Assembly: GCA_018813805.1 (NCBI GenBank)
Contig: JAHJAP010000015.1
Location: forward strand, 1 to 15,023
Length of the DNA: 15,023 bases
Direction of reading: 5' to 3'
Source: Patescibacteria group bacterium
GTDB taxonomy: Bacteria; Patescibacteriota; Patescibacteriia; Patescibacteriales; GWC2-42-12
Every line of letters begins with the position of its first letter. Position 1 is the stretch's first letter. The position numbers and the translations under genes were made by a program. The notes below the pieces were generated by a model. The model was not told the DNA's origin. It saw only the letters and a list, made by a program, of their open reading frames with translations, and made no database searches. Positions 900-15,006 of this stretch are shown one piece after another.

Positions 900-1060
900 G
901 GGTCTGTCGCCAAATACCATATTCGGTATAAAATTCCAAATTTTTGTAAATTTTTTTAAAAACTTTTTCGCTAATATAACCATATTCCCTCAAAACTTTT
1001 TAAAAAAATTTCCTAAAAATTTGGAATTTTCTACTCAAAAGAGTATTCGGCGACAGACCC
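900..1060 (+). mobile_element. 161-bp MITE-like inverted-repeat element, copy 1
   Basis: The element starts GGGTCTGTCGCC and ends GGCGACAGACCC, an inverted terminal repeat. It is flanked on both sides by TTGAC (895-899 and 1061-1065), a candidate 5-bp target duplication. The interior is also an imperfect palindrome. AAAATTCCAAATTTTT on the left is mirrored by the complement of AAAAATTTGGAATTTT on the right, and the centre is AATAT-AACC-ATATT at 973-986, the exact midpoint. It has no coding capacity. The same 161-bp unit, with about eight mismatches by eye, recurs in opposite orientation at 14846-15006. It fills most of the 317-bp gap between the methyltransferase and secE. It may be mobilised in trans by a transposase that is not in this window. 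Confidence 0.85.
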
Positions 1061-1087
1061 TTGACAGTTATTTGTATATTGTATAAT
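1061..1087 (+). promoter_or_regulatory. Likely sigma70-type promoter of secE-nusG-rplK-rplA
   Basis: A consensus -35 TTGACA (1061-1066) is followed by TATAAT at 1082-1087 with a 15-bp spacer; TAATAT at 1084-1089 would give 17 bp. Both hexamers are near perfect, and the first gene of the operon begins at 1143. The first five bases of the -35 box are also the right-hand target duplication of the upstream 161-bp element. Confidence 0.65.
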
Positions 1088-1103
1088 ATATAAGTATAAA
1101 ATC

Positions 1104-1129
1104 AAAACGCCAAACAAGGCTGTTTTTTT
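1104..1129 (+). promoter_or_regulatory. Terminator-like hairpin in the secE leader (possible attenuator)
   Basis: Between the promoter and secE, AAAACGCC (1104-1111) can pair with GGC-T-GTTTT (1118-1126, one bulged T) around an AAACAA loop. The run of seven T ends at 1129. The shape is that of a weak intrinsic terminator inside the leader, which could act as an attenuator. Only three G-C pairs plus one more C-G support the stem, so it may be chance in AT-rich sequence. Confidence 0.3.
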
Positions 1130-1142
1130 AATAGAACTAATT

Positions 1143-1328
1143 ATGAATAAACTTACGAATTACATTAAAGCATCAATGGAAGAAATGAAAAAAGTTACTT
1201 GGCCAAGCAAAAAAGAAACTTATAGTTATACTACATTGGTTATTGGCATTAGTTTGAGTGTTGCTGCTTTTTTAGGTATATTGGATTTTATTTTTAACAC
1301 AAGCATAAAATTTATTATCAATAAATAA
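1143..1328 (+). CDS. secE: Preprotein translocase subunit SecE
   Basis: This 61-residue protein has the short single-membrane-span form of SecE found in most bacteria. It forms the SecYEG protein-export channel in the cytoplasmic membrane. The amphipathic cytoplasmic helix carries the family motif MEEMKKVTWPSKKE (12-25), followed by one membrane span (about 30-53). The start has no Shine-Dalgarno site but is the only ATG that keeps the family length. nusG follows after 12 bp, the classic secE-nusG-rplK-rplA order. Expression is probably driven by the TTGACA/TATAAT promoter at 1061-1087. Confidence 0.95.
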   Translation: MNKLTNYIKASMEEMKKVTWPSKKETYSYTTLVIGISLSVAAFLGILDFIFNTSIKFIINK

Positions 1329-1340
1329 TTTTGACTTAAT

Positions 1341-1886
1341 ATGGCAAAACAAATATTAAATCAAGGGCGCCGTTGGTATGTTCTTCACACCTATTCTGGT
1401 TATGAGGAAAATGTTGCGCAAAATTTAAAACAAAGAATTGAATCAATGGACATGGAGAATAAAATCTATAATATTCTTATTCCAACGGAAAAAAAAATTA
1501 AAATAAAAAATGGCAAAAGAAAAGTTTTTGAAGAAAAAATATTTCCTGGTTATGTGTTAGTAGAAATGGTTGTTACTGATGACTCTTGGTATGTTGTAAG
1601 AAATACGCCAAATGTTACAGGTTTTATTGGTACTGGCACTATTCCTACGCCAATTAGCGAACAAGAAATAAAAAATTTACAAAAACGCATAGGCGTAAAA
1701 GAACCAAAATTCAAAATTGATGTTTCTGTTAATTCTCCTATTAGAATTATTGATGGTCCATTTAAAAACCTTGAAGGAAAAGTTATTGACATAGACGAAG
1801 CTAAGGGTAAAATAAAAATTGCTGTTTTCATGTTTGGTCGTGAAACTTTAGTAGAGTTAGACTTTTTACAAATTAAAAAAATATAA
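1341..1886 (+). CDS. nusG: Transcription elongation/antitermination factor NusG
   Basis: This 181-residue protein has the normal NusG length. The N-terminal NGN domain (about 10-118) binds RNA polymerase. It opens with [17 protein letters not shown] and contains [13 protein letters not shown], both hallmarks of the family. A C-terminal KOW domain (about 126-160, [14 protein letters not shown]) contacts Rho or ribosomal protein S10. It lies 12 bp after secE and just ahead of rplK in the usual transcription-translation cluster. Nothing looks altered. Confidence 0.96.
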
Positions 1887-1909
1887 TCTTGCAAATTAAA
1901 TTAATTTTT

Positions 1910-2335
1910 ATGGCTAAAAAAATACAGGCTAAAATTAAACTACAAATACCAGCTGGGCAAGCTACGCCTGCCCCTCCTGTTGGACCTGCCTTAGGTCAAC
2001 GTGGCTTGAGTGTTCAAGAATTTTGCATGAAATTTAATGAAATGACTCGCGACAAGATGGGTGATATTATTCCAGTAGAAATTTTTGTTTACGCTGATAG
2101 AACTTACACATTTATTACTAAAACCTCGCCTGCCTCAGAGTTAATTAAAAAATACGCTAAAATATCCAAAGGATCTAGCAAGGCTGCCGTGGAAAAAGTT
2201 GGTTCAATTACTGAAAGTCAATTAAAAGAAATCGCTCAAATAAAAATGCCTGATTTAAATGCTAATGATATAGAAGCTGCTATGAAAATAATTGCTGGCA
2301 CAGCCAGGCAAATGGGGGTGGAAATTACAAAGTAA
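1910..2335 (+). CDS. rplK: Large ribosomal subunit protein L11
   Basis: This protein has 141 residues, the standard L11 length, starting at the ATG of MAKKIQ. The signature [19 protein letters not shown] lies near residues 15-34, in the N-terminal domain that binds factors and thiostrepton-type antibiotics. The C-terminal RNA-binding domain ends in [12 protein letters not shown]11 binds the GTPase-associated centre of 23S rRNA. An upstream in-frame TTG at 1889 would add seven residues foreign to the family, so I use 1910. rplA follows after 83 bp of repeat-rich spacer. Confidence 0.96.
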
Positions 2336-2414
2336 AAAGTCCATAAAGTCCATAAAGTCAAAAGTAAAAAATTAAAATAAAAAAATCTAACAGCTAAAAC
2401 CTAACAGCTATTTA
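2336..2414 (+). repeat. Short tandem repeats in the rplK-rplA spacer
   Basis: The 83-bp spacer is built of small repeats. The 9-bp unit AAAGTCCAT occurs twice (2336-2353), followed by AAAGTCAAAAGT. A 14-bp unit CTAACAGCTAAAAC (2387-2400) is followed by CTAACAGCTATTTA (2401-2414). The 21 bases at 2345-2365 recur exactly on the opposite strand inside miaB (9875-9895). No hairpin or terminator is evident. Confidence 0.7.
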
Positions 2415-2418
2415 ATTT

Positions 2419-3093
2419 ATGACAAAAAAAATTGAATCAACAATAGGTCTTGATAAAACAAAAGTCTATCCAATTGAAGAAGCTATTGAATTAACTAAAA
2501 AATTAGCTAAAACTAAATTTGACGCTTCAGTAGAAGTTCATTTTCGGTTAGGCATTGATAGCAAAAAAGGCGAACAACAAATTAGAGCAACCGTTGTTCT
2601 TCCTTATGGTACAGGCAAAACAATTAAAATCGCCGCCTTTGTTACTCCTGAGCACGAAAAAGAAGTTAAGCAAGCTGGAGCTGATTATGTTGGCGGAGAT
2701 GAGTTAATTGCAGAAATTAAAAAAACAGAAAAAACTGATTTTCAAGTAGCTATTGCTGAACCATCTTTAATGAAAAATTTATCACAAATTGCTAAAATTT
2801 TAGGTACTCGCGGTTTAATGCCTTCCCCAAAAAACGATACTATTACCAATAATCCAGTAAAAACCGTTAATGAACTTAAAAAAGGTAAAGTAAGTTTTAA
2901 AAATGATGACACTGGCAATATTCATGTGGCTATTGGCAAAGTTTCTTTTGACAAACAACAATTAATAGAAAATTTTCAATCCCTACTTGCAGCAATAAAA
3001 AAAGCTAAACCAATTAGTTCCAAAGGAATTTATTTAAAAAATATTTCTTTAAGCTCATCAATGGGTCCTGGCATAAAAATTCAATTAAATTAA
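2419..3093 (+). CDS. rplA: Large ribosomal subunit protein L1
   Basis: This 224-residue protein matches bacterial L1 in length and order. Domain I begins with YPIEEAIELTKKLAKTKFDASVEVHFRLGID, and the RNA-binding signature GTRGLMPSPKN lies near residues 129-140. Domain II lies between the two halves of domain I, and the C-terminal strand ends SSSMGPGIKI. L1 forms the mobile stalk next to the ribosomal E site and in many bacteria represses its own operon by binding the mRNA. No L1 mRNA site could be recognised by eye here. The gene ends the secE operon, and the next gene starts 59 bp on. Confidence 0.96.
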   Translation: MTKKIESTIGLDKTKVYPIEEAIELTKKLAKTKFDASVEVHFRLGIDSKKGEQQIRATVVLPYGTGKTIKIAAFVTPEHEKEVKQAGADYVGGDELIAEIKKTEKTDFQVAIAEPSLMKNLSQIAKILGTRGLMPSPKNDTITNNPVKTVNELKKGKVSFKNDDTGNIHVAIGKVSFDKQQLIENFQSLLAAIKKAKPISSKGIYLKNISLSSSMGPGIKIQLN

Positions 3094-3152
3094 CAAATTT
3101 TTTTAATTTTGATAGAATAAAAAAACCAATTAATTTCTATTATTAAAATTAT

Positions 3153-3659
3153 ATGTCTGATAATACTACTTATACTCGCCCTTCATGGGATGAATATTTT
3201 TTAAAAATTATGGAAATAGTGGGTTCACGCAGTAGTTGTGATCGTGGTCGTTCTGGTTGTGTTATTGTTAAAGATAAAAGAATAATTTCCACAGGCTATG
3301 TTGGTTCTCCCATTAACACGCCTCATTGCGACGAAGTTGGTCATGAAATGCATACAATTATCAATCTTGACGGCACTAAATCAAAACATTGCATTAGAAC
3401 TACGCATGCCGAACAAAATGCCATTTGTCAAGCCGCGCGCTTTGGTATTGCGTTTGAAAATAGTACATTATATTGTAAAATGACTCCATGTTATGCTTGT
3501 GCCAAAATGATAATTAATGCTGGCATAAAACGCGTAGTTGCTGCTCAAGATTATCATACCGGAAAACGTAGCAAAGAAATTTTTGCTCAAGCTAACGTAC
3601 AATTTAACTTAATTAGTGATACAATGACAATTTATTCCGATCAAGACTTAATAAAATAA
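3153..3659 (+). CDS. Deoxycytidylate (dCMP) deaminase
   Basis: This 168-residue zinc enzyme of the cytidine deaminase superfamily converts dCMP to dUMP in the cytoplasm. The zinc site is visible as HAEQNAI (84-90; His and catalytic Glu) and PCYAC (112-116; two Cys ligands). The N-terminal SWDEYFLKIMEIVGSRSSCDR, with an additional Cys- and His-containing insert (TPHCDEVGHEMH), is typical of dCMP deaminases of the ComEB type. It begins a cluster in which the next three genes use or make dUMP/dTMP, and its stop is 1 bp from the next start. A weak promoter candidate (TTGATA near 3109, TAATTT near 3131) lies upstream. The specificity for dCMP rather than other cytosine nucleotides rests on family resemblance and context. 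Confidence 0.88.
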   Translation: MSDNTTYTRPSWDEYFLKIMEIVGSRSSCDRGRSGCVIVKDKRIISTGYVGSPINTPHCDEVGHEMHTIINLDGTKSKHCIRTTHAEQNAICQAARFGIAFENSTLYCKMTPCYACAKMIINAGIKRVVAAQDYHTGKRSKEIFAQANVQFNLISDTMTIYSDQDLIK

Positions 3660-3660
3660 A

Positions 3661-4995
3661 ATGGAAAATCAAAATTCAAATAAAATTTTAACTGACATTT
3701 TTTTATTTGACGAATTCAGCCCCGAAGACAATGCTATGTTGCAAGCGCTTTATTCTAGAAGTCCAAAAAGCGTAACTGAACATGTTGAAAAAGTTAAACA
3801 AAATGGTTCTGGAAAATTTATGGAACAATATTATGTTGGCTATGGTCATGCTTCTATTGCTGATTGTGGTTCTTCTACTTTTTTTATAGAAAAACTAAGC
3901 ATTATTGCCGATAAAGCCATTCAAGATTGGCCTCTTTATTCTGGTCAAGAAACTAGCACTCGCTATGTTGATATGTCCAAACAACCAATTATTGATCCAC
4001 TTAATACTGCTGATTCAAAAACAATACTTCAATCATGGATGGATTTTTATATAAATTCACAAAATAGTGTAAAAGAACATCTAAGCAAAAAATACCCTCG
4101 TTGCCAAGATGAAGATGAAAAAATGTATTTAAAAGCCATTACCGCTAGAACTTTTGACATTATGCGTGGCTTTTTACCAGCAGGTATTACAACACAGTTA
4201 AGTTGGCATACTAATTTACGCCAAGCTCATGACAAATTAATTTTAATGAAACACAATCCCCTGCCAGAAATAAAAAACATTGCCGAAACAATGCTAATTA
4301 AATTAAAAGAAAAATATCAACACAGTTTTAGCCATGAAATTATTACAGAACAAGAAGATTATCGTGAATCAATTTGTCAAAAATATAATTTTTATAATCC
4401 AACAAAGCCATTACTAAAATTCTCCATGCGCACTAATATTTCTTTGAACGAACTTGAACAATATAATAATATTATTGCTAATCGTCCACTTAAAACTGGT
4501 TTACCTTATTTTTTAACAGAACTTGGAAATATTACTTTTGAATTTTTGCTTGATTATGGTTCTTTTCGCGACATTCAAAGACATCGCAACGGAGTTTGTC
4601 GCATACCACTTTTAACAACTAAACTTGGTTTTAATCAATGGTATTTGGATCAATTACCAGAAGATATTAAAAATAAAGCGCTAATTCTGATTGAACAACA
4701 AAAACAAGCGATAAAAAATTTAAATGCTACACAAGAAATTAGCCAATATTATATTTCACTTGGCTTTAATGTCGCTTGCAAAGCTTCATATGGTTTACCG
4801 GCGACAGTTTATGTTTTAGAACTTCGTTCAATGAAGTCAGTTCATCCAACATTACGTCAAATCGCGCATAAAATGTATCACGCTATGAAAGAAAAATTTC
4901 CAAATTTAAAAATGCACGCTGACTTAGAAAAAGATGATTGGGATGTACGCCGCGGTTTGCAGGATATTGAGATAGTTTCAAAAAATAATTTATGA
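3661..4995 (+). CDS. Tandem two-domain ThyX-like protein (flavin-dependent thymidylate synthase family)
   Basis: This 444-residue protein is about twice the usual ThyX length and appears to hold two Thy1-type domains. In the first, YGHASIAD (61-68), SGQETSTRY (94-102), RGFLPAG (169-175) and NLRQAHDKL (185-193) match successive ThyX blocks. In the second, QRHRNG (306-311), YGLPATVYV (377-385) and ELRSMKS (387-393) do so. The classic RHR-x-x-S-x-N-x-x-S-x-R-Y motif is split: domain 1 keeps the S-x-R-Y half without RHR, and domain 2 keeps RHR without S-x-R-Y. ThyX methylates dUMP to dTMP with FAD and methylenetetrahydrofolate. The neighbours (dCMP deaminase, kinases, dUTPase) support that role here. 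It overlaps the next gene by ATGA. Whether it is catalytically a ThyX is inferred. Confidence 0.75.
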   Translation: MENQNSNKILTDIFLFDEFSPEDNAMLQALYSRSPKSVTEHVEKVKQNGSGKFMEQYYVGYGHASIADCGSSTFFIEKLSIIADKAIQDWPLYSGQETSTRYVDMSKQPIIDPLNTADSKTILQSWMDFYINSQNSVKEHLSKKYPRCQDEDEKMYLKAITARTFDIMRGFLPAGITTQLSWHTNLRQAHDKLILMKHNPLPEIKNIAETMLIKLKEKYQHSFSHEIITEQEDYRESICQKYNFYNPTKPLLKFSMRTNISLNELEQYNNIIANRPLKTGLPYFLTELGNITFEFLLDYGSFRDIQRHRNGVCRIPLLTTKLGFNQWYLDQLPEDIKNKALILIEQQKQAIKNLNATQEISQYYISLGFNVACKASYGLPATVYVLELRSMKSVHPTLRQIAHKMYHAMKEKFPNLKMHADLEKDDWDVRRGLQDIEIVSKNNL

Positions 4996-5549
4996 AAACC
5001 AATAAAAAAATTATAATCGGTTTAACAGGAGAAATTTGCTCTGGCAAGGGCATAATTGCCAAATATTTAACAGATAGATATAATGCTAGTTCTTATCGTT
5101 TTTCAAGTATGTTAAGAGATGTATTGGCTCGCTTGCACTTACCTATTTCTAGAAAAAATATGCAATTAATTTCCACTGTTATTCGACAATATTTTAGCCA
5201 AGACATAATGGCTAAGGTAATTACTAAAGATGTTAAAAATAGTAAAGAAAATATTATTGTTGTTGACGGGATACGACGCATGTCTGATATTAAATATCTT
5301 AAAACAATAAATAATTTTAAATTAATTCGCATTATAGCTGATCCAAAGACAAGATATAAAAGATTAATTATTAGAAAAGAAAATAAAGGAGATGAAAATA
5401 AAACTTATGAAGAATTTTTAGAAGATCATAAAAAAGAAGCTGAAGCTGAGGTATTAATAATTATGTCAAAAGCTAACTTGGAAATAAATAATAATAGTAG
5501 TTTAGAAAATTTATATAAACAAGTTGACCAAATTATATTAAACAGTTAA
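4992..5549 (+). CDS. P-loop (deoxy)nucleotide kinase-like protein
   Basis: This 185-residue protein has a Walker A loop GLTGEICSGKG (10-20), a second acidic/arginine block VVDGIRRMSD (90-99) and an arginine/lysine-rich lid RYKRLIIRKE (121-130). This is the layout of the nucleoside-monophosphate kinase / dephospho-CoA kinase-like group. It overlaps the ThyX-like gene by 4 bp (ATGA), implying translational coupling. The gene context suggests a deoxynucleoside monophosphate as substrate, but dephospho-CoA kinase-like activity cannot be excluded from the sequence. A separate thymidylate kinase lies just downstream, so dTMP itself is a less likely substrate. Confidence 0.65.
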   Translation: MKTNKKIIIGLTGEICSGKGIIAKYLTDRYNASSYRFSSMLRDVLARLHLPISRKNMQLISTVIRQYFSQDIMAKVITKDVKNSKENIIVVDGIRRMSDIKYLKTINNFKLIRIIADPKTRYKRLIIRKENKGDENKTYEEFLEDHKKEAEAEVLIIMSKANLEINNNSSLENLYKQVDQIILNS

Positions 5550-5570
5550 ATTATAAATAGGTTCAAATAA

Positions 5571-5607
5571 GGGTCTGTCGCCGAATACCGTATTCGGCGA
5601 CAGACCC
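5571..5607. mobile_element. 37-bp perfect palindrome, deletion form of the 161-bp element
   Basis: GGGTCTGTCGCCGAATAC, a single central C, and the exact complement in reverse give 18-bp arms with no mismatch. It is flanked by AATAA on both sides (5566-5570, 5608-5612). The sequence equals the left end of the 161-bp element up to GTATTCGG joined to the last ten bases of its right end (CGACAGACCC). It is the product expected from deletion between the two internal GTATTCGG copies. As RNA it would form a strong hairpin, but no T-tract follows. Confidence 0.8.
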
Positions 5608-5684
5608 AATAAAGGAGGGATGCTAAAATAGTATTCTTTTTTTATACAAATTTTATACTCGAAAGAGTATCCGGCGACAGACCC
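5608..5684 (+). repeat. Truncated right half of the GGGTCTGTCGCC element
   Basis: The right end ATACTC-GAAA-GAGTAT followed by CCGGCGACAGACCC (5655-5684) corresponds to the right end of copies 1 and 3, which also carry an ACTC-xxAA-GAG hairpin before the terminal repeat. No matching left half is present apart from the adjacent palindrome, so this is a truncated copy. Orientation is the same as copy 1. It ends 16 bp before the start of the kinase-dUTPase gene. GGAGGG at 5614-5619 directly precedes an ATG that runs only three codons, so I do not call a gene there. Confidence 0.65.
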
Positions 5685-5700
5685 ATAAACGCCAAAAAAT

Positions 5701-6876
5701 ATGGAAAATCAAAAAGGAAAATTTATTGTAATTGATGGCACTGATGGTTCGGGCAAAGCCACTCAAACCGAAATTCTTGCAAAAAGATTAAGGCAGGCTG
5801 GTTTTGATGTGACAGTTGCTGATTTTCCTCAATATAACACAAAATCAGCAGGATTAGTTGAAGAATATTTAAGCGGCAAATATGGAAAAGCTGAAGAAGT
5901 TGGGCCATATCGAGCTTCTATTTTTTATGCTTGCGATCGCTATGACGCTAGTTTTAAAATAAAAAAATGGCTAGCTGAAGGTAAGATAATTATTTCAAAT
6001 AGATATGTTACTGCTAACATGGGGCACCAAGGAGGAAAAATTGAAAATCCATCAGAAAGAAAGTATTATTTTGACTGGCTTTACAAACTTGAATATAAAA
6101 TTTTTGATATTCCGCAACCTGATTTAAATATTATTCTTCATGTTGACGCGGAAATTTCCCAACTCTTAGCCAAGCAAAGACAAAAACAAGATTGGATTGG
6201 TAAAACCAACGACATTCATCAAGATAATTTAGAGCATCTTAAAAAAGCTGAAAAAACTTATTTACAAATTGCAAAAAATTTTCCAAAATTTAGATTAATT
6301 GAATGTACAGCTAATGAACAAATATTAAGCAGAGAAGAAATTAGTGATTTAATCTGGAAAGAAATTATTAAACTTTTTAAACCTGCGCCCTCTTTAATTA
6401 ATTTTAAAGAATTGCGCAATCAAATATCATCAACCAATATTGAAAACAATGACTCAAAATTAAAAATTGAAAAAATATCGTCTTGTGCAAAATTACCTAC
6501 GCGCGCTTATGACAATGATGCTGGCTTGGATTTATATTCTTCTGATTATTATTCTTTATTCTCTAATGATTGCTTTACAATTAAAACAGGATTAAAGTTA
6601 GCAATACCTGTTGGTTGCGTTGGTTTAATTTGGGATAAAAGTGGCTTAGCAAGAAATGGCATTCATTGTTTGGCAGGAGTAATTGACGCTGGTTTTAGAG
6701 GAGAAGTTACGATTCAATTAATTAATTTAAGCCAAGATGTTTATCATATTGCTCCTGGCCAAAAAATTGCTCAACTATTAATTCAAAAAGTTGAATTTCC
6801 AGAAATAATTGAAGAACAAGTTGACAATGAAACTGACAGAAAAGATGGACATTTTGGATCATCGGGATTGTTTTAA
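5701..6876 (+). CDS. Fused thymidylate kinase - dUTPase (Tmk-Dut)
   Basis: One frame of 391 residues joins two enzymes. Residues 1 to about 225 are thymidylate kinase (dTMP to dTDP): P-loop GTDGSGKA (13-20), CDRYDAS (78-84), and NRYVTANMGHQGG (100-112). After a linker (about 226-252), residues 253-391 form a trimeric-type dUTPase (dUTP to dUMP and pyrophosphate). Its five motifs are in order: DAGLDLYS (273-280), KSGLARNG (313-320), GVIDAGFRGEV (326-336), GQKIAQLL (353-360) and the C-terminal RKDGHFGSSG (380-389). Motif 3 has Phe where many dUTPases have Tyr, and motif 2 has Lys-Ser rather than Arg-Ser. Thus one polypeptide makes dUMP and handles the dTMP produced from it. The start at 5701 is the only ATG before the P-loop. 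Confidence 0.92.
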   Translation: MENQKGKFIVIDGTDGSGKATQTEILAKRLRQAGFDVTVADFPQYNTKSAGLVEEYLSGKYGKAEEVGPYRASIFYACDRYDASFKIKKWLAEGKIIISNRYVTANMGHQGGKIENPSERKYYFDWLYKLEYKIFDIPQPDLNIILHVDAEISQLLAKQRQKQDWIGKTNDIHQDNLEHLKKAEKTYLQIAKNFPKFRLIECTANEQILSREEISDLIWKEIIKLFKPAPSLINFKELRNQISSTNIENNDSKLKIEKISSCAKLPTRAYDNDAGLDLYSSDYYSLFSNDCFTIKTGLKLAIPVGCVGLIWDKSGLARNGIHCLAGVIDAGFRGEVTIQLINLSQDVYHIAPGQKIAQLLIQKVEFPEIIEEQVDNETDRKDGHFGSSGLF

Positions 6877-6902
6877 AATTTACTTTAGGTTAAAATGATA
6901 TT

Positions 6903-8423
6903 ATGAAATATGATATTATTATTGGCATGGAAATCCATGCTGAACTAAAAACAAAATCAAAGATGTTCTGTGAATGTGATAATGATTCAACAAACAAACA
7001 GCCCAACACTACTGTCTGTCCTATTTGTTTTGGCCATCCTGGAACACTACCTATTCCAAATAAACAAGCCATTGAATGGACAATGTTGCTTGGTATGAGC
7101 TTACATTGTCAAATTAATAAATCATCAAAATTTGACCGTAAAAATTATTTTTATCCTGACTTACCTAAAGGCTATCAAATTTCTCAATACGACTTACCAA
7201 TTGCTTATGGTGGTTATTTAGAAATAAATAATGAACAAATAAAAATTACCAGAATCCATTTAGAAGAAGATACTGGTAAATTAATTCACCCTAATAAAAA
7301 AACTTACTCCTTGGTAGATTATAATCGCGCAGGAACGCCATTAATTGAGCTTGTTACCGATCCTGTTATTCATGACAGCAACACCGCAAAAGAATTTTGT
7401 CAAATCTATCAACAAATTTTACGTTATTTAGAAATTTCTAATGCTGATATGGAAAAAGGTGAAATGCGTTGTGAAGCAAATATTAGCGTACAAGAAAAAA
7501 ACAAATGGAAATATTTTAATAAAGAAATAAAACCAGTTGATAACTATGAATTAAATCCTAAAATTGAATTAAAAAATATTAATTCTTTTAGATATATGGA
7601 AAAGGCTATTAATTATGAAATTGATCGTCAAATTAAAGCTATTGAAAATAATGAAAAATTAATTCAAGAAACGCGAGGATGGGATGATAATAAAGGGACA
7701 ACCTTTAGCCAGCGAATTAAAGAAACATCAGCTGATTATCGATATTTTCCTGAACCCGACATCCCAATGCTTTGCCTCAACAACAAATGGCAAAAAATTA
7801 TTGAAAAAAAAATAATTGAATTACCACCAGAAAAAATTAAACGATTTAAGGAAGAATATTTTTTTACTGATTATGAAGCAAAAATTTTAGTTAGTGATAA
7901 AAAATTGGCTGATTATACAGAAAAAATAATTTCCGAATTACGCGAATGGATTGATACGACCAATGACAATTGGGAAAGGCAAAGAAAAAAATTAACCAAA
8001 ATTACAGCTAATTGGTTGATTAATGAATTATTTAAACATTTAAAAACCGATAATAAAATAATTAAAAGCGATCAATTTAATAAAATAAAAATTACTCCTG
8101 AAAATTTTGCTGAATTTATTTGTTTAGTTTATCAAGACAAAATTAATTCTTCTGCCGCTCAAACAATTTTAACTAAAATGTATCAAGATGGTGGCGATCC
8201 TTCACAAATAATGGTTGATTTAGGTTTAGAACAATTAGATAATGAAGCTGAATTAGAAAAAATTATTAAAAATATTCTTTTACTAAATAAAGAACAAGTA
8301 GCGCAGTATAAGGCTGGCAAAGAAAATGTTTTACAATTTTTGGTTGGAAAAACAATGGCAACAACCAATGGCAAAGCTAATCCTAAATTAGTAATTGAGA
8401 TATTAAAAAAAGAATTAAAATAA
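6903..8423 (+). CDS. gatB: Asp/Glu-tRNA amidotransferase subunit B
   Basis: This 506-residue GatB is the subunit that activates misacylated Glu-tRNAGln or Asp-tRNAAsn for amidation in GatCAB. Hallmarks are IIGMEIHAELKTKSKMFC (6-23), the cysteine pairs CEC (23-25) and CPIC (39-42) that bind zinc in some GatB proteins, HLEEDTGKL, GTPLIELVTDPVI and YFPEPDIP. The middle carries a small insert (KWKYFNKEIKPVDNYEL) before the KIELKNINSF block. The C-terminal YqeY-like tail domain ends KANPKLVIEILKKELK. gatA and gatC are not in this window. It starts 26 bp after the kinase-dUTPase and overlaps the convergent miaA by 9 bp at its 3' end. Confidence 0.95.
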   Translation: MKYDIIIGMEIHAELKTKSKMFCECDNDSTNKQPNTTVCPICFGHPGTLPIPNKQAIEWTMLLGMSLHCQINKSSKFDRKNYFYPDLPKGYQISQYDLPIAYGGYLEINNEQIKITRIHLEEDTGKLIHPNKKTYSLVDYNRAGTPLIELVTDPVIHDSNTAKEFCQIYQQILRYLEISNADMEKGEMRCEANISVQEKNKWKYFNKEIKPVDNYELNPKIELKNINSFRYMEKAINYEIDRQIKAIENNEKLIQETRGWDDNKGTTFSQRIKETSADYRYFPEPDIPMLCLNNKWQKIIEKKIIELPPEKIKRFKEEYFFTDYEAKILVSDKKLADYTEKIISELREWIDTTNDNWERQRKKLTKITANWLINELFKHLKTDNKIIKSDQFNKIKITPENFAEFICLVYQDKINSSAAQTILTKMYQDGGDPSQIMVDLGLEQLDNEAELEKIIKNILLLNKEQVAQYKAGKENVLQFLVGKTMATTNGKANPKLVIEILKKELK

Positions 8424-9380
8424 GGTGGATAAAAACATTTTAATTAATTTTTTAGCTTTTGCCGTATTCGGCAACAGACTTTTTGTAACATTTTCTATCC
8501 AATTAATTTTTTTACCTTGTTGTTCCCAGCGTCTAAACCAAGACATCTGACGGTTAGCAAATTGATTGCTTGCAATATTTAATTTTTCAACCATTTCATC
8601 ATATGTTAATTTTTTCTGCAAATATAACGAAATAAATTTATATTCCAAACCAAACTCTTCTAATTTACGCCAACTTAATCCTTGTTGGTGAAATTGTTTA
8701 ATTTCATCTATCATTTTTTCTTTTTCCAGTCTATAAATTAATCGGTCATAAATTCTTTTTCTTAATATTTGCTTAGAACAAGTCAATCCGATAATCAATG
8801 TCTGATATTTTTCTTTTAATTTTGTTGAACATAATAAATTATTTTTAAAATTTTTATCAAATAATAAAATTTCTGCATAGCGAATTAAACGACGTTTATT
8901 ATTTTTATCGCTATTATTTATTTTTATCGCCATTTCAGGCGATAATTTTTTTATTTTAGTAAAAAGCTGATTGATAGTTAATTTTTCTAATTTTTTTCTC
9001 AAACTTAAATCAGGCTTACTGTCAAATAACTGAAAATTATCAACAACTGCTTGCAAATACAAACCACTGCCTCCAACTAAAATCGGTAATTTCCCGCGCT
9101 GTAAAATATCATCAATTGCCTTAAACGCTAATTTTTGATATTTAGCTAAATTAAATCGCGTTTTAGGGCTAACTACATCTATTAAATAATAAGGAATTAC
9201 TTTTGACTTAATGCAATATTGTTTTAAATCCTTTCCTGTTCCAATGTCCATGCCGCGATAAACTTGTCTTGAATCAGCGCTTACAATTTCGCCATTAAAT
9301 TCCATTGCCAATTGCACTGCTAATTTTGTTTTACCGCTAGAAGTTGGCCCTAATATTGCTAAAATTTTATTTTTTTTCAT
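8415..9380 (-). CDS. miaA: tRNA dimethylallyltransferase MiaA
   Basis: MiaA adds the isopentenyl group to A37 of tRNAs reading UNN codons. The start MKKNKILAILGPTSSGKT gives the P-loop at residues 11-18, as in most homologues. An upstream in-frame ATG at 9398 would add MNLLIK. Further hallmarks are SADSRQVYRGMDIGTGK, VGGSGLYLQAVV, RRLIRYAEIL and RQMSWFRRW. After the conserved end (about ...INWIENVTK) comes a tail of about 21 residues, of which SLLPNTA is encoded by a degenerate copy of the GGGTCTGTCGCC repeat (8461-8480). The gene overlaps the end of miaB by 14 bp (32 bp with the longer start), and its stop lies inside the 3' end of convergent gatB. Confidence 0.94.
   Translation of the reverse strand: MKKNKILAILGPTSSGKTKLAVQLAMEFNGEIVSADSRQVYRGMDIGTGKDLKQYCIKSKVIPYYLIDVVSPKTRFNLAKYQKLAFKAIDDILQRGKLPILVGGSGLYLQAVVDNFQLFDSKPDLSLRKKLEKLTINQLFTKIKKLSPEMAIKINNSDKNNKRRLIRYAEILLFDKNFKNNLLCSTKLKEKYQTLIIGLTCSKQILRKRIYDRLIYRLEKEKMIDEIKQFHQQGLSWRKLEEFGLEYKFISLYLQKKLTYDEMVEKLNIASNQFANRQMSWFRRWEQQGKKINWIENVTKSLLPNTAKAKKLIKMFLSTLF
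8461..8480 (-). repeat. Degenerate element tip inside the miaA 3' coding region
   Basis: Read on the minus strand, AGTCTGTTGCCGAATACGGC closely matches the element tip GGTCTGTCGCCGAATACCG, and TTGCCG-AATA-CGGCAA forms a 6-bp stem. Compared with the element palindrome, the stem change C to T is balanced by G to A on the other arm. It lies within the miaA reading frame, coding for part of the C-terminal tail. Confidence 0.55.
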
Positions 9381-10500
9381 TTTTATTAATAAGTTCATTT
9401 AAAATTTTCCAACGTTGTTTTTTTTCTAAAATTGGAATGCTATCTTTAAGTTTTGCCGCCGCTGTTCCTGGTCTAGGTGAATAAACAGAAATATATGCTT
9501 TATTAAAATTAATTTTTTTGCAAATATTAACTGTATTTTGAAATTGCTTTTTTGTTTCACCAGGAAAACCAACAATAATATCTGTAGTAATATTAGAATC
9601 AGGCATGGCTTTTCTAATTTTTTTTATTAAATTAATATAATATTCAACTGTATATTTTCTATTCATTTTTTTTAATATCTCATTATCTCCGGCTTGAATA
9701 GGCAAATGAATATAATGACAAACTTTTTTACTTTTAGCAATAGTTTTGATTAATTTATCAGACATATCCTTGGGATGACTGGTTAAAAATTGAATTTGAA
9801 AATCCCCCTTGATATCATTAATCATCTTCAATAGATCATGAAATTTTATAATTTCCTCAGGCTTTTGACTTTTGACTTTTGACTTTATGGACTTTCGGCT
9901 TACTTCATAACTATTTACATTCTGCGCAATTAAAATAATTTCTTTATACTTTTTTTTAATTAAACCTTTTATTTCTTTTAATATATCTTCTGCTGGCCGA
10001 TAAACCTCTCTGCCGCGCGCATAAGGTACTACGCAATAAGAACAAAAATTATTACACCCGTTACCAATTGGCACAAAAGCGCTAAATTTTGATTCGTATT
10101 TTGGAATTATTTTTAGATAATCATTTGTACATTTTACATTTATTTGAAAATCTGAATTTAAAAATTTATTAAAAATTGAAAATCTGAATTTAAAAATTTG
10201 ATTAATTGGAATCCATGCATCAACCCACTTTTTTAATCTTTTTTGAACATCTTTTCTATAAACCAAGCACCCTGTTACAATAATTTTTACATTAAAATTT
10301 TTCTTTTTTATTTCTGGTATAAATCCATAAATTCTATCTTCAGCTGTTTGTCTAACGCCACAAGTATTAATCACAACTAAATCGGCCTGATATTTATTAT
10401 CAGACCGTTTATAGCCAAGCTCTTCTAGTTTTCCAGCTATTCTTTCGCTGTCACTTTTATTCATCTGACAGCCAATTGTGATAATATAATATTTTTTCAT
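9367..10500 (-). CDS. miaB: tRNA-2-methylthio-N6-dimethylallyladenosine synthase MiaB, without TRAM domain
   Basis: MiaB adds the methylthio group to the i6A37 made by MiaA, using two iron-sulfur clusters. Cys11 (GCQMN), Cys47 (TCGVR) and Cys78 (TGCL) bind the auxiliary cluster. Cys149, Cys153 and Cys156 (CNNFCSYC) form the radical-SAM motif, followed by VPYARGRE. Other hallmarks are IAQNVNSY, LTSHP, HLPIQAG and TDIIVGFPGET. At 377 residues it stops soon after SPRPGTAA and a short helix, where most MiaB proteins (about 430-460) continue into a TRAM RNA-binding domain. Two repeat-derived stretches are read in frame at residues about 102-121 and 201-213. It overlaps dnaJ by one base (TAATG) and miaA at the 3' end. 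A different methylthiotransferase is possible but the miaA partner favours MiaB. Confidence 0.9.
   Translation of the reverse strand: MKKYYIITIGCQMNKSDSERIAGKLEELGYKRSDNKYQADLVVINTCGVRQTAEDRIYGFIPEIKKKNFNVKIIVTGCLVYRKDVQKRLKKWVDAWIPINQIFKFRFSIFNKFLNSDFQINVKCTNDYLKIIPKYESKFSAFVPIGNGCNNFCSYCVVPYARGREVYRPAEDILKEIKGLIKKKYKEIILIAQNVNSYEVSRKSIKSKVKSQKPEEIIKFHDLLKMINDIKGDFQIQFLTSHPKDMSDKLIKTIAKSKKVCHYIHLPIQAGDNEILKKMNRKYTVEYYINLIKKIRKAMPDSNITTDIIVGFPGETKKQFQNTVNICKKINFNKAYISVYSPRPGTAAAKLKDSIPILEKKQRWKILNELINKNEKK
9861..9895 (-). repeat. AAAGTC-type repeat read within miaB
   Basis: On the minus strand AAAGTCCAT is followed by AAAGTC and repeated AAAAGTC units. Bases 9875-9895 equal, in reverse complement, the 21 bases at 2345-2365 of the rplK-rplA spacer. 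Here the repeat is translated as KSIKSKVKSQK (residues 203-213), just after the conserved NVNSY block, in a loop that varies among MiaB proteins. Confidence 0.65.
10144..10199 (-). repeat. 24-bp direct repeat within miaB
   Basis: The same 24 bases (TTGAAAATCTG, then AATTTAAAAATTT, on the + strand) occur at 10144-10167 and 10176-10199, 32 bp apart. Because 32 is not a multiple of three, the copies are read in different frames: on the minus strand one gives IFKFRFS and the other KFLNSDFQ (MiaB residues about 102-119). This lies between the N-terminal domain and the radical-SAM core. Confidence 0.75.
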
Positions 10501-11585
10501 TATATTCCCAATTCTTTAAATAATTCTTTTTGTCTTCGATTTAAGCTGGTTGGTGTTTTAACAATAATTTCAACCAAATGATCGCCACGACCACGACCAT
10601 GCAAATGCGGCACTCCTTTATTTCGTAAAATAAAAATTTTGCCTGATTGTGTACCTTCAGGAATTTTTAAACTAACAGCTCCATCAACAGTAATAATTTC
10701 AATTTTATCACCTAAGGCTGCTTGAGAAAAATTAATTTTCGCTTGAGATTTTATATTAACACCATCACGTTCAAAACGATGATCAGAGTTTATTCTAATT
10801 TTTAAATACAAATCCCCTGCTTGCCCGCTTTTATATCCAGCTTCACCTTGGCCAGATAATCTAATTACTTCATTATTATTAATACCAGCCGGAATTTTAA
10901 TTTTAAAATTAACTGTTTCATTAACAATACCAACTCCACGACAAACTGAACATTTTTCTTTAAAAGTTTTTCCTTCACCATTGCAATCACTGCAAGCTAT
11001 TTGTACTTGCATATTACCAAAAATTGTTCGCTGAACTTTAACAACATGCCCTTTGCCATTGCAAGTTTTACAAGTAATAACAGTTGCGCCAGGCTCTATG
11101 CCTTCGCCTTTGCATTTAACGCACTTAATTGTTTTTTTCAAACTGATTTCTTTTTCAATACCAAAAATCGCTTCATTAAAATTAATAGTTAAAATCATTT
11201 GAATATCCTGACCGCGCCTAGCTTGTTGACTACGTTTTTCTCTTCCGCTAGAAAAACCAAAAATATCGCTTATATTACCAAAAATATCGCTTATGTCGTC
11301 TATATTCACATTAAACCCATTACTAAAACCTGAAAAACCTTCAAAGCCCGAGAAACCGCTCTGACCTTTTACTTGATCAAAATTTGAACCAAATTGATCA
11401 TATTGAACACGTTTTTCAGGGTTGCTTAAAACTTGATAAGCTTCATTTATTTCTTTAAATTTAGCTTCATTGCCACTTTTTTTATCAGGATGATGTTGAT
11501 GAGCTAATTCACGAAAAGCTTTTTTAATTTCATCTTGACTAGTGTTTTTCTCAACACCAAGTATTTTATAATAATCTTTAGACAT
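10500..11585 (-). CDS. dnaJ: Chaperone protein DnaJ
   Basis: This 361-residue type I DnaJ stimulates DnaK ATPase activity and delivers unfolded clients. Domains in order: J domain (5-66) with HPD at 32-34; Gly/Phe-rich region (about 74-113); four CxxCxGxG zinc-finger repeats beginning at Cys155, Cys172, Cys198 and Cys212; then the client-binding C-terminal domains. The Gly/Phe region contains ISDIFG twice, encoded by an 18-bp perfect direct repeat at 11256-11273 and 11277-11294. The start MSKDYYKILGV is standard. It lies 153 bp downstream of dnaK and touches miaB with TAATG. Confidence 0.97.
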   Translation of the reverse strand: MSKDYYKILGVEKNTSQDEIKKAFRELAHQHHPDKKSGNEAKFKEINEAYQVLSNPEKRVQYDQFGSNFDQVKGQSGFSGFEGFSGFSNGFNVNIDDISDIFGNISDIFGFSSGREKRSQQARRGQDIQMILTINFNEAIFGIEKEISLKKTIKCVKCKGEGIEPGATVITCKTCNGKGHVVKVQRTIFGNMQVQIACSDCNGEGKTFKEKCSVCRGVGIVNETVNFKIKIPAGINNNEVIRLSGQGEAGYKSGQAGDLYLKIRINSDHRFERDGVNIKSQAKINFSQAALGDKIEIITVDGAVSLKIPEGTQSGKIFILRNKGVPHLHGRGRGDHLVEIIVKTPTSLNRRQKELFKELGI

Positions 11586-11653
11586 AAAAAAATTAATAAA
11601 GTTTATCCTTCTCTGTTAATTATAAATTAAGTTGATTGTAGCTTTTTCCATTA

Positions 11654-11721
11654 AGCCCTCCCAACCCTCCCTTGTCAGGGGGGGGGCTCAAACTCACACG
11701 TAACCATCCCTTGTCATGGAA
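11654..11721. repeat. GC-rich inverted repeats between dnaK and dnaJ
   Basis: The 153-bp spacer (11586-11738) contains AGCCCTCCC (11654-11662), able to pair (one wobble) with GGGGGGGCT (11680-11688). An alternative inner stem is CCCTCCC-TTGTCA-GGGGGGG. A second, weaker unit AACCATCCCTTGTCATGGAA (11702-11721) repeats AACCCTCCCTTGTCAGGGGG (11663-11682) in degenerate form. Reading in the operon direction (minus strand) no T-tract follows the strong hairpin, so it may be an mRNA-processing or stability element, or simply a dispersed palindromic repeat. It could lower dnaJ expression relative to dnaK. Confidence 0.5.
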
Positions 11722-11738
11722 GAAATAATTAAAATATT

Positions 11739-13652
11739 CTACTTTTTTTCAGTAAATTCTCCTTCAATTGGATTCTCTTCTTTTTTCTTTTCTCCAGATC
11801 CAGCATCGTTATTTGGTTGTGCATTGCCAACCCCAGCGCCAGGTTGCGCCTGAGACTGCTGATACATTGCCACGCCTATTTTTTGCACAATAACATTTAA
11901 TTCTTCTAATTTCTTTTTTATCTCATCAGACTGATCGCTGTCTTTCACTTTTTTCAAAGCCTCAATTTTTTCTTCTAACTCTTTTTTATCTTCTTCCTTT
12001 ATCTTATCACCCATATCTTTAATTAATTTTTCACTTTGAAAAATAACTGCCTCAGCTTGGTTTTTAATTTCTATTTGTTCTCTTTTTTTCTTGTCTTCTT
12101 CAGCGTGTAGTTCAGCTTCTTTTTTCATTTTTTCAATTTCCTCTTTACTTAAACCAGATGAAGCTGTAATAGTAATATTTTGCTCTCTGTTGGTTGCTTT
12201 ATCTTTAGCCTTAACATTAAGAATACCGTTAGCATCAATATCAAAACTTACTTCAATCTGCGGAATACCGCGAGGCGCTGAAGGAAAACCATCCAAAATA
12301 AATCTACCTAAAGTTTTATTATCAGAAGCCATTGGTCGCTCGCCTTGCAAAACATGAATCTCCACGCTAGTTTGACCATCAGCTGCTGTAGAAAAAATTT
12401 GTGATTTAGAAGTTGGAATAGTTGTATTTTTTTCAATTAACGGTGTAGCTACTCCACCCAAGGTTTCAATTCCTAAAGTTAATGGAGTAACATCAAGAAG
12501 TAAAACATCTTTAACATCGCCCTGCAATACGCCAGCCTGAACAGCAGCGCCTAAAGCTACTACTTCGTCAGGATTAACTGTTAAATTTGGCTCTCTGTTA
12601 AAAAACTCTTTTACTTTTTTTTGCACTAAAGGCATACGTGTCATACCGCCAACTAAAATAACTTCCTGAATATCTTTAATAGTAAAACCAGCGTCTTTTA
12701 AGGCTGCCTGGCAAGGACCAATGGTTTTCTCAACCAAATCTCCAACTAATTCTTCTAATTTAGCGCGCAATAATTTCATTACTAAATGTTTTGGTCCATT
12801 AACATCAGTAGTTATAAAAGGTTGATTAATTTCTGTTTCCATTGTTGTTGATAATTCAATTTTTGCTTTTTCAGCAGCTTCTTTAATTCTTTGCAAGGCC
12901 AAAGTATCTTTAGATAAATCAATACCCTGATCTTTTTTAAATTCATTAATTATCCAATTAATCAAACGTTGATCAAAATCTTCACCACCTAAATGCGTAT
13001 CGCCATTAGTGGATTTTACTTCTACTGTATCTGAGCTTACATCAAGGATTGAAACATCAAAAGTTCCACCGCCTAAATCATAAACAGCTATTTGTTGGCC
13101 TTTTTTCTTTTCAAATCCATAAGCTAGTGCTGCTGCTGTTGGTTCATTAATAATACGTTTAACTTCTAAACCAGCAATTTTGCCAGCGTCTTTGGTTGCT
13201 TGACGCTGAGAATCATTAAAATAAGCTGGTACAGTAATAATTGCCTCAGTTATTTTTTCGCCTAATTTTGCTTCAGCATCAGCTTTTAATTTAGACAAAA
13301 TCATAGCTGATACTTCTTGCGGAGTGTAGTCTTTGTCAGACATTTTTATTTTAACTCCATCATTAGCCTTAATAATTTTATAAGGCGATATTTTAATATC
13401 GCGCTGAACTTCATCATCTTCAAAACGTCTACCTATTAAACGTTTAACGGCATAAACAGTATTTTCTGGATTAGTTACGGCCTGTCTTTTAGCAGTTAAG
13501 CCAACTAATCTTTCATTATTTTTAGAAATTGCCACAATAGAAGGCGTAGTTCTATTGCCTTCAGTGTTTTCTAAAATCTTTGGCTGACCGCCTTCGATAA
13601 TGGCTACAGCGCAATTTGTTGTGCCCAAATCAATACCTAAAATTTTTGACAT
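11739..13652 (-). CDS. dnaK: Molecular chaperone DnaK (Hsp70)
   Basis: This 637-residue Hsp70 has the standard length. The nucleotide-binding domain (1 to about 380) has [13 protein letters not shown] phosphate loop [12 protein letters not shown] (6-17), [29 protein letters not shown] and [11 protein letters not shown]. The substrate-binding domain (about 385-500) starts at the [11 protein letters not shown] block and is followed by a charged helical lid. A Gln/Gly/Asn-rich linker leads to a tail ending [12 protein letters not shown], in place of the acidic EEVKD-like ends of proteobacterial DnaK. It works with the GrpE fusion, DnaJ and Hsp20 encoded beside it. The gap to hsp20 is 56 bp. No CIRCE operator was found. 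Confidence 0.98.
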
Positions 13653-13708
13653 ATTATTTTATTTCATAACTTGTAACGCAAAAATACGTAACTAGAAATG
13701 ATATTTAA

Positions 13709-14134
13709 TTATTTAATATTTTTAATTTTAATCATTTTTGGTTTAGTTTCCAAAGCTTTTGGAATTACTATTTTCAAAACACCATTTCGCGTTTCAGCGC
13801 TAGTTTTTTCGCCAATAACATGAGAAGGTAATGGCAAACTTCTATAAAAACTACCGCGTTTAATTTCTTTTCGATAATAATTTTTATCTTCAACTTCGCT
13901 TTTTTTCTCACTTTCACCTTTAATAATTAAAACATCATTCTCAATGGAAATATCAACTTTAGCTGGATCAATACCTGCTAGTTGAGTTTCAACAATAACA
14001 TTGTCTTTGTCTTGATAAACATCTACTGCTGGCACAAAACCAGCTGTGTCGTAATTAGCAAGTGTTAAATCTTGAAAAATTTTATCCATGTCATCAAATG
14101 ATTCAAGAAATGGCGCCCATTTAATAATTGGCAT
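13709..14134 (-). CDS. Small heat shock protein (Hsp20/alpha-crystallin)
   Basis: This 141-residue holdase binds unfolding proteins and passes them to DnaK. A short N-terminal arm (MPIIKWAPFLESFDDMDKIF) precedes the alpha-crystallin domain (about 35-130), which has VPAVDVYQDKDNVIVE, AGIDPAKVDISIEND and the signature RNGVLKIVIPK. The tail contains an I-x-I type motif (IKIK) used for oligomer assembly. The start at 14134 is set by a GGAGG site ten bases upstream (14149-14145), the clearest Shine-Dalgarno in this window. It sits between the GrpE fusion and dnaK; chaperone operons more often lack an Hsp20 gene in this place. Confidence 0.95.
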   Translation of the reverse strand: MPIIKWAPFLESFDDMDKIFQDLTLANYDTAGFVPAVDVYQDKDNVIVETQLAGIDPAKVDISIENDVLIIKGESEKKSEVEDKNYYRKEIKRGSFYRSLPLPSHVIGEKTSAETRNGVLKIVIPKALETKPKMIKIKNIK

Positions 14135-14144
14135 ATGTTTTTTT

Positions 14145-14149
14145 CCTCC
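14145..14149 (-). promoter_or_regulatory. Strong ribosome binding site of hsp20
   Basis: On the minus strand GGAGG stands ten bases before the hsp20 ATG. Most other genes in the window have only A-rich leaders, so this gene may be translated independently and strongly. Confidence 0.7.
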
Positions 14150-14197
14150 GCGTTGATTCTATGCGCTAGAATTAATCGCGAAAATTAAAATTAATTA

Positions 14198-14830
14198 TTA
14201 TTTAAACTTATAAATTATTACCTTAGCCGCTGCTATCATCCTGCCATTAAGCAAATAGCCTGCTTTCACCTGTTCAACCACTTGTCCATCTAAATTTTTA
14301 TCTTCAGTTTCTTTACTGCTAATTGCTTCCATTAAATTATGATCAAATTTTTTATCTTTAATTTTTATTTCTTCAATGCCTAATTTTTTCAAAACCTCAC
14401 TAAATTGCTTAATAATATATTCAATGCCAATGGCCCAACTATTCTTTTTAGCAGATTCATCAACATGCTGAATTGAAATTTTTAAATTATCATAAATTGG
14501 CAAAATTTCATGAAGCAATTGTCTGTTGGCGAATTCAATAAATTCAATTTTTTCTTTTGCTGTTTGCTTTAACAAATTTTGATAATCAGCTAAAGCGCGT
14601 TTATATTTTGCTTCTAAGTCATCAGAATTATTATTAATGTATTCAAATCTATTTATTTTTTTACCGTCTACTTCAACTTGATTTAAAAACATTTTTTTTG
14701 GCCTAACCCAAATTTTATTATCAATAATTGATTGATAAATTACAACTTCTTCTTTGTTTTCGCTATTATAACCTGAAAATAAAACACGATATTCTGCTCC
14801 TTTATAATGTTTATAAATTCCTATTTTCAT
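14198..14830 (-). CDS. grpE: DUF1653-GrpE fusion, nucleotide exchange factor
   Basis: This single 210-residue frame carries two modules. Residues 2-64 match DUF1653: GIYKHYKGAEYRVL, EEVVIYQ, WVRPKKMFL and DGKKINRFEYI. The function of DUF1653 is not known. Residues about 68-210 are GrpE: a coiled coil with RALADYQNLLKQTAKEK (78-94) and LLHEILPIYDNL (105-116), then FDHNLMEAI (162-170) and the beta-domain signature AGYLLNGRMIAAAKVIIYK (190-208). GrpE releases ADP from DnaK, encoded two genes downstream. In usual GrpE proteins the N-terminus is a disordered tail, so DUF1653 replaces it. The ATG at 14830 has no clear Shine-Dalgarno and lies 15 bp from a 161-bp element. Confidence 0.88.
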   Translation of the reverse strand: MKIGIYKHYKGAEYRVLFSGYNSENKEEVVIYQSIIDNKIWVRPKKMFLNQVEVDGKKINRFEYINNNSDDLEAKYKRALADYQNLLKQTAKEKIEFIEFANRQLLHEILPIYDNLKISIQHVDESAKKNSWAIGIEYIIKQFSEVLKKLGIEEIKIKDKKFDHNLMEAISSKETEDKNLDGQVVEQVKAGYLLNGRMIAAAKVIIYKFK

Positions 14831-14845
14831 AGTAGATTTCTAAAT

Positions 14846-15006
14846 GGGTCTGTCGCCGAATGCTCTTCCGAGTAGAAAATTTCAAATTTTTAGGAAATTT
14901 TTTTAAAAAGTTTTGAGGGAATATGGTTATATTAGCGAAAAAGTTTTTGACAAAATTTACAAAAATTTGGAATTTTATACCGAATACGGTATTCGGCGAC
15001 AGACCC
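14846..15006 (-). mobile_element. 161-bp MITE-like inverted-repeat element, copy 3
   Basis: This is the reverse complement of the element at 900-1060, the same length and about 95% identical by eye, with the terminal repeats GGGTCTGTCGCC/GGCGACAGACCC intact. TAAAT flanks it on both sides (14841-14845 and 15007-15011), a candidate 5-bp target duplication. It codes for nothing. Relative to the gene downstream of it (grpE, minus strand) it has the same orientation as copy 1 relative to secE. Its near edge is 15 bp from the grpE start, so the chaperone operon's leader, and probably its promoter, lie within it. Confidence 0.85.
14926..14953 (-). promoter_or_regulatory. Candidate grpE promoter inside the 161-bp element
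   Basis: On the minus strand TTGTCA (14953-14948) and TATAAC (14931-14926) are separated by 16 bp, each one base from the sigma70 consensus. They point toward grpE with a leader of about 90 bases. In copy 1 the aligned -35 is TTTTTA, so this promoter is specific to the present copy. Confidence 0.4.

Follow-up and report, generated by a model that had tools for sequence, protein, structure and literature searches.

Two 161-bp repeats with matching inverted ends lie on a 15,023-nt contig (C63; this whole stretch is called the window) from the genome of a Patescibacteria group bacterium (688,760 bp in 121 contigs), and the question raised by this locus is what kind of element they are and how they were dispersed. 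They are best explained as members of a non-autonomous, hairpin-shaped family of miniature inverted-repeat transposable elements (MITEs), in which the full form (about 160 bp) makes up a single long imperfect hairpin that would be moved in trans and would often collapse later. A probability of about 0.75 is assigned to this reading. The two elements are identical at 153 of 161 positions, lie in opposite orientations and carry perfect 12-bp inverted ends, GGGTCTGTCGCC. Each is an imperfect palindrome centred on AATAT-AACC-ATATT and is flanked by its own perfect 5-bp direct repeat (TTGAC or TAAAT). All of these features had been described in an initial annotation of the letters of the window, which put the identity at about 95%, and all were recovered on recounting. 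Folded as single-stranded DNA, the element at 900-1060 reaches -43.2 kcal/mol compared with a shuffled mean of -11.4 (z = -11.7; equalled by 0 of 200 shuffles). Neither element contains a transposase gene; among open reading frames (ORFs) of at least 80 aa, a single 93-aa frame starts inside an element and continues into the adjoining sequence. The elements and related features of the window are as follows.

895..899, no strand: left copy of the 5-bp target duplication TTGAC (from the sequence).
900..1060, plus strand: full-length 161-bp hairpin element (from the sequence, genome match and fold).
1061..1065, no strand: right copy of the 5-bp target duplication TTGAC, which is also the first five bases of a promoter-like hexamer, TTGACA.
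5566..5570, no strand: left copy of the 5-bp target duplication AATAA of a 37-bp element.
5571..5607, plus strand: 37-bp element, with one base between two 18-bp ends.
5608..5612, no strand: right copy of the 5-bp target duplication AATAA of the 37-bp element.
About 5651..5684, plus strand: right-end fragment of an older copy, with an exact 12-bp end at 5673-5684 and an outer boundary set by eye; no clear left end was found for it.
8464..8481, plus strand: possible decayed right end, GTATTCGGCAACAGACTT, matching the 12-mer with 3 mismatches and weak when taken alone.
14841..14845, no strand: left copy of the 5-bp target duplication TAAAT.
14846..15006, minus strand: hairpin element of full length (161 bp), lying upstream of grpE at 15 bp from its start (14830, minus strand).
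15007..15011, no strand: right copy of the 5-bp target duplication TAAAT.

A search of the genome for further copies, as the initial annotation had proposed, returned at least 24 places where 157 or more of the 161 bases of the element are matched with 85-100% identity. The 12-base end was matched with at most one mismatch at 204 sites, compared with none for the reversed pattern, so these sites are not due to chance. Sixty-nine end pairs, sampled from the returned loci and from 40 stretches around the first 100 of the 204 sites, were analysed; three of them (88, 91 and 237 bp) have one end that also belongs to a better pair; they are likely mispairings and were kept in the count. Exact 5-bp duplications flank 45 of the 69 pairs (shuffled mean 1.4, maximum 5, in 200 shuffles), and exact flank matches of 3, 4 and 6 bp were found in 3, 1 and 1 pairs, respectively, and of 7-9 bp in none. 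The lengths are discrete, namely 37 bp (26 pairs), 44 bp (9), 51 bp (2), 75 bp (4), 161 bp (22) and 162 bp (2), with single pairs of 88, 91, 197 and 237 bp. Exact duplications are carried by 19/24 pairs of 161-162 bp, 9/11 of 44-51 bp, 14/26 of 37 bp, 2/4 of 75 bp and 1/4 of the other lengths. The initial annotation had proposed a MITE-like family with 5-bp target duplications and held that other copies lacking such repeats would speak against it; most full-length copies in the genome carry them. The discrete short forms, including the one at 5571-5607, had escaped it, as had the structural conservation across genera described below.

The duplicated 5 bp are A+T-rich and read roughly N-T-W-A-N, with T at position 2 in 32/45 (binomial p = 0.007) and A at position 4 in 34/45 (p = 0.0004). 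The elements are mostly outside genes and avoid long ORFs: among the 57 of the 69 pairs that lie in loci of at least 1600 bp, nine had over 80% of their length in an ORF of 150 codons or more, though such ORFs make up 55% of the bases. The element fits the general definition of a MITE, being short and transposase-free, with 12-18-bp inverted ends and target duplications in dispersed copies.

The family is distributed patchily among relatives. A 17-base end was matched with at most one mismatch in 11/61 genomes including the own genome, that is in 10/60 relatives (the reversed control matched twice); two of these, G026 and G035, are single matches, not confirmed as pairs. Exact paired ends at the spacing of the 161-bp class were found in 5/380 genomes of the class, the own genome included, and relaxed paired ends in 2/379 genomes of the phylum, namely the own genome and one of another class. 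The places tabulated number 38 in 16 other genomes, apparently all Patescibacteria; the named carriers include Falkow-, Kerfeld-, Uhr- and Vogelbacteria plus two metagenome-assembled genomes. The places span 148-195 bp, with 35 at 152-164 bp and three at 172-190 bp, of which the one of 183 bp is probably a mispairing. The ends are similar between genomes and the interiors differ. Exact 5-bp duplications flank 14/38 places, duplications with one mismatch flank 11/38, and the element in G473, a genome of another class, lies within a GATCT duplication. In the relative G001, 9/27 pairs have an exact 5-bp duplication (control mean 0.4). Viral contigs, phages and plasmids were searched for the element and gave no match. 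Single matches to the 17-mer outside the candidate phyla radiation (CPR), among the matches listed, were taken as chance, since 257 billion bases should contain dozens of occurrences of a 17-mer with one ambiguous base.

Conservation of the hairpin was analysed in an alignment of 17 elements from 14 genomes. These were chosen from 23 that had been lined up; L100, L188, L204, L093_7484 and L064 were left out for their unalignable interiors and L024 as a further copy from the own genome. Across the 44 predicted pairs, 95.3% of the cells are paired (30-46% when the arms are slid), changes on both sides are seen in 73 cells (5-11 for slid arms), and 20/44 pairs show a double change at least once. 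Alignments as high as the observed one occurred in 0/500 shuffles on four measures and in 1/500 on a fifth. Relatedness and fitting inflate covariation scores, and the gap to the controls is still large. About 18 terminal bases are conserved across genera. Certain mismatches are kept as well, in Watson-Crick terms: columns 19.150, 20.149 and 73.92 are unpaired in 16/17, 15/17 and 16/17 elements, respectively, and these positions adjoin the 18-bp base or lie near the apex. The hairpin itself is therefore conserved while its interior letters change.

The arms might instead have stayed complementary solely through template switching, which would homogenise the palindrome and leave the hairpin without use. 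Palindromes are self-corrected during replication, and the alignment gives no sign of selection on an RNA strand because G.U pairs (7 of 748 cells) are not above A.C mismatches (15 of 748), which also fits template switching. Homogenisation should, however, erase mismatches, and these are kept at fixed positions across genera; the length of most places also stays near 160 bp. Template switching as the sole cause is accordingly judged a serious contender with somewhat worse than even chances.

The reference for the short forms was a majority consensus built from 22 full-length copies. Removal of a single block from this 161-bp consensus yields the 37-bp form and both 44-bp forms with 0 mismatches, and the direct repeats at their deletion junctions are 8, 4 and 4 bp, respectively; the 75-bp forms have a 6-bp junction repeat and 2 mismatches. 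The element at 5571-5607 corresponds to the consensus after deletion between GTATTCGG direct repeats. This 8-bp sequence is the longest direct repeat in the element with a spacing of at least 60 bp, deletion between its copies predicts exactly 37 bp, and 37 bp is the commonest short class (26/69). The arm bases differ in a 264-bp form of G001, from which a 50-bp form can be derived, with 1 mismatch, by deletion at the corresponding 9-10-bp repeat. For a 74-bp form of G103, a Kerfeldbacteria genome, 4/6 comparisons show a 5-bp junction repeat. At the orthologous place L247/L137, a 37-bp form in the own genome stands against a differently cut remnant in G001. At L248/L275, the same interval holds a 49-bp and a 37-bp copy, which is only suggestive because the junction bases differ. 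Two further places, L019/L095 and L238/L116, were considered as one shared insertion with different deletions and rejected, as the flanks are not supportive on both sides. The sequence relations indicate that the short forms likely arose by collapse in place, through slippage at short direct repeats.

Alternatively, the 37-bp and other short palindromes might be mobile themselves and not collapsed 161-bp copies. Exact 5-bp duplications around 14/26 of the 37-bp copies would fit such mobility, as would their abundance: they are as numerous as full-length copies in the sample from the own genome, and 15/27 pairs in the G001 sample are 37 bp and 1/27 is 161 bp. The exact junction relation to the 161-bp form argues against it, as does the match between a relative's own short form and its own long form. 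So does the L247/L137 comparison, and intact duplications are fewer in the 37-bp class than among full-length copies (14/26 vs. 19/24; Fisher p = 0.08, not significant). Independent mobility of the short forms is considered unlikely.

Several other observations were made in the genomes that carry the family. Elements are located at breaks of synteny between the own genome and G001 (L021/L006 vs. L134 and L238 vs. L116), which suggests recombination between copies. A second small palindromic family, TCCCGC...GCGGGA, lies inside element arms in G001 (L137:614-877 and L150:180-403), and the 264- and 224-bp forms with this inserted palindrome still fold as one hairpin. Also in G001, two right ends, each with ATAAT directly after it, enclose an ORF that resembles a phage-type BRO or antirepressor gene by eye (L128:3200-4050). 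A second subfamily with GGGACTGTCGCC-type ends is present in G103 (L093:7484-7645, L188:1501-1663, L204:1501-1664 and L171:1248-1419); its interior is unrelated, yet its members are 162-172 bp long and form a strong hairpin where folded.

The hairpin MITE reading can be laid out in four steps. Copies lie between 5-bp duplications of A+T-rich targets (approximately N-T-W-A-N), mostly outside genes. The 18-bp terminal inverted repeats would serve as transposase sites, and a DDE-type transposase encoded elsewhere would mobilise the element in trans by cutting with a 5-bp stagger; such an enzyme may now be rare, lost or missing from draft assemblies. The DDE type is proposed from the duplications and inverted ends. 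Across genera the interior letters change, whereas the ends, the hairpin and some of its mismatches persist, so that the folded or paired form, or the length, may matter for transposition or persistence. The long palindrome would collapse after insertion by slippage between direct repeats of the arms, and its products would be the palindromes of 37, 44, 50 or 75 bp, in which the ends and, in many cases, the target duplications are preserved.

Several results weigh against this reading. Exact 5-bp duplications are lacking at 24/69 pairs in the own genome, 18/27 pairs in G001 and 24/38 places in the 16 other genomes. Among the short forms, the 51-bp forms fit the consensus with 2-3 mismatches and a 3-bp repeat, the 49-bp form of the own genome has no microhomology, and the 43-bp form of G103 has 0-4 bp of microhomology with 3-5 mismatches; random placements give at least 5 bp of microhomology in 15% of cases, which is not negligible. 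No base-exact empty site was obtained at any locus compared, the grpE loci included. No transposase bounded by element ends was found for five Pfam families in 8-9 carriers, the PF00872 and PF01797 loci not being checked. Likewise, no long end pair (300-6000 bp) in the loci examined both has a 5-bp duplication and encloses a transposase.

Homologous loci occupied in all relatives would, according to the initial annotation, have spoken against mobility. This part of the comparison was favourable, as 12 relatives have a grpE match, 11 of these loci were scanned and 0 have paired element ends. G001 and G006 belong to the nearest genus, and in both an hrcA-like end (by eye) lies directly upstream of grpE, where the window has its element. 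The comparison yields no base-exact empty site because the contig of the window ends 17 bp past the element. A search at L016/L089, L025/L128, L245/L156, L208/L105 and L032/L130 gave no clean site, and no interrupted copies were found that could serve as evidence of empty sites.

The initial annotation had also suggested looking for a transposase gene with the same ends, and none was found among the loci examined. Profile matches in element-bearing genomes were obtained for PF01609 (6/8), PF12762 (2/8), PF00872 (1/8), PF01797 (4/8) and PF01526 (0/9). Ends with at most 3 mismatches were sought around 14 loci of PF01609 and PF12762 in genomes that are mostly drafts. End-like sites with 1-2 mismatches occur near L176/L180, L182 and L183, and no pair of them bounds a transposase gene. 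The copy at L182 in G103 has ends AGACCTGTTGC (by eye) with a 3-bp repeat, and a transposase relic in the own genome has ends CCTAACGAGATTCGGGTTA (by eye); neither matches the element ends. A DDE_Tnp_1 insertion sequence in G103 (L173:1479-2352) has ends TAACTGTCTAAATT (by eye) and an exact 5-bp repeat, CTTAG; it has nothing in common with the element beyond CTGTC and the repeat length and is a lead, not a match. A 1602-bp end pair in L012 is interpreted as an artefact in which a 37-bp copy with its own duplication is joined to a 161-bp copy, and the 498-aa ORF within it does not look like a transposase by eye. Around 30 sites in G103, 52 ORFs of at least 200 aa were inspected by eye, without a run against a library, and no transposase was recognised. 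A multi-copy autonomous element could be missing from the own genome, less easily from G103.

A different history is that the family is its own lineage of structure-recognised transposon and no shrunken insertion sequence, with an enzyme that binds the folded hairpin and cuts with a 5-bp stagger. Its signal would be the body of about 160 nt with its 18-bp base, its conserved apex and the fixed positions of its mismatches. Such a lineage would explain why shape and length are kept across Patescibacteria without sequence, and why no copy was found with a transposase gene. This origin is regarded as rather improbable, slightly more so than mobility of the short forms.

Descent from Tn3 is quite improbable; the element would then be a TIME (Tn3-derived miniature element) that arose from a Tn3-family transposon by deletion and depends on a Tn3 transposase for its movement. 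Tn3 ends begin with GGGG and are about 38 bp long, and the conserved end of the present element is only about 18 bp by comparison with that general figure, no set of Tn3 ends being compared. A Tn3 transposase was matched in 0/9 carriers, while the control matched in 2/14 known genomes. The element has 5-bp duplications, A+T-rich targets and G-rich ends, and it resembles TIMEs in the repeats and, as far as Tn3 ends in general go, in the G-rich ends; TIMEs make direct repeats of 5 bp, sometimes 6 bp (PMC13367494).

Dispersal as a functional RNA or terminator hairpin that serves the needs of the host is very improbable. Its conserved covarying hairpin and position mostly outside long ORFs would suit such a role, and in a second count, made on a single reference folded as RNA, G.T exceeded A.C (81 vs. 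45), a result biased by the choice of the structure through an RNA fold. Target duplications, the patchy distribution and the presence of both orientations in the window argue against it, as do the absence of any match in an Rfam search of the window and the cross-genus alignment, in which G.U is not above A.C.

Finally, REP and REPIN (repetitive extragenic palindrome) families moved by a Y1 (RAYT) transposase make no target duplication, and membership in them is scarcely credible for an element that, in spite of its high copy number and short intergenic palindromes (some of 37 bp), has 5-bp duplications, as the initial annotation had argued, and ends in GGGT/ACCC, neither GTAG nor CGTC, with no Y1_Tnp match in the own genome, G001, G006 or the 100%-complete G103 (4/8 carriers without a match, 4/8 with one). 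CGTC repeats are without a dedicated transposase, and none was found for the present element; REP and REPIN are likewise short intergenic high-copy palindromes, whereas the full form of the element is about 160 bp (PMC3733652).

Among known systems, prokaryotic MITEs are described as geneless, stem-forming elements of less than 500 bp that have short inverted ends, target A+T-rich intergenic sites and, in younger copies, carry direct repeats, and the QMITE1 of Coxiella shows size gradients down to 39 bp (PMC10969869). The element shares their size, geneless state, inverted ends, repeats, targets and stem. It is unlike typical MITEs in that no parent insertion sequence was found and in its near-constant length and covarying hairpin across genera. 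The Rickettsia palindromic elements are also palindromic repeats of about 150 bp in a reduced genome; they are noted for in-frame insertion in genes, whereas the present element is mostly outside long ORFs and has 5-bp duplications (PMC10969869). Palindromes and inverted ends are involved in the IS1182/IS1272 group as well, in which new IS1272 insertions replaced stem-loops and left no duplications (PMC5678879); the element differs in its 5-bp duplications, and two IS1182-like genes (by eye) of G103 have ends other than those of the element. It does not pass as a TIME, a REP/RAYT element or an IS1272-type element, and it is rated a new family, a variant kind of MITE. In the open-licence library searched, no paper joins Patescibacteria with the term "miniature inverted-repeat". 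No description was found among the top-ranked open-licence titles and abstract starts for CPR, Parcubacteria, Falkowbacteria or Kerfeldbacteria repeats, palindromes or MITEs, or for bacterial hairpin MITEs. The 12-base end occurs, in that library, only in a herpesvirus glycoprotein paper.

Neighbouring genes of the window were also inspected. The sequence at 1061-1089 contains TTGACA, a 17-nt spacer and TAATAT upstream of a nusG-like ORF (by eye); the insertion at 900-1060 thus hit a promoter-like site, and the target duplication restored the -35 box TTGACA. The possible decayed end at 8464-8481 is inside the 3' end of an ORF at 8415-9398 that is miaA-like by eye, and this old end seems to contribute C-terminal codons of the ORF. 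The gene at 14198-14830 (minus strand) encodes GrpE with a fused N-terminal DUF1653 domain and has near full-length relatives in G001 and G006. A 391-aa ORF at 5701-6876 (plus strand) combines thymidylate kinase and dUTPase domains, and a deaminase and a Thy1-like gene lie upstream of it.

With about 200 element ends in 0.69 Mb, this genome shows that a reduced genome can hold an appreciable share of non-coding mobile DNA. Such repeats may break short-read assemblies, possibly including the present draft, in which elements are located at the starts of contigs C98 and C78. The keeping of a hairpin shape without sequence across genera makes DNA structure as a transposition signal testable. The relation between the 161-bp and 37-bp forms documents, many times over in nature, how palindromes are deleted at direct repeats, and short palindromes in such genomes can be transposon scars.

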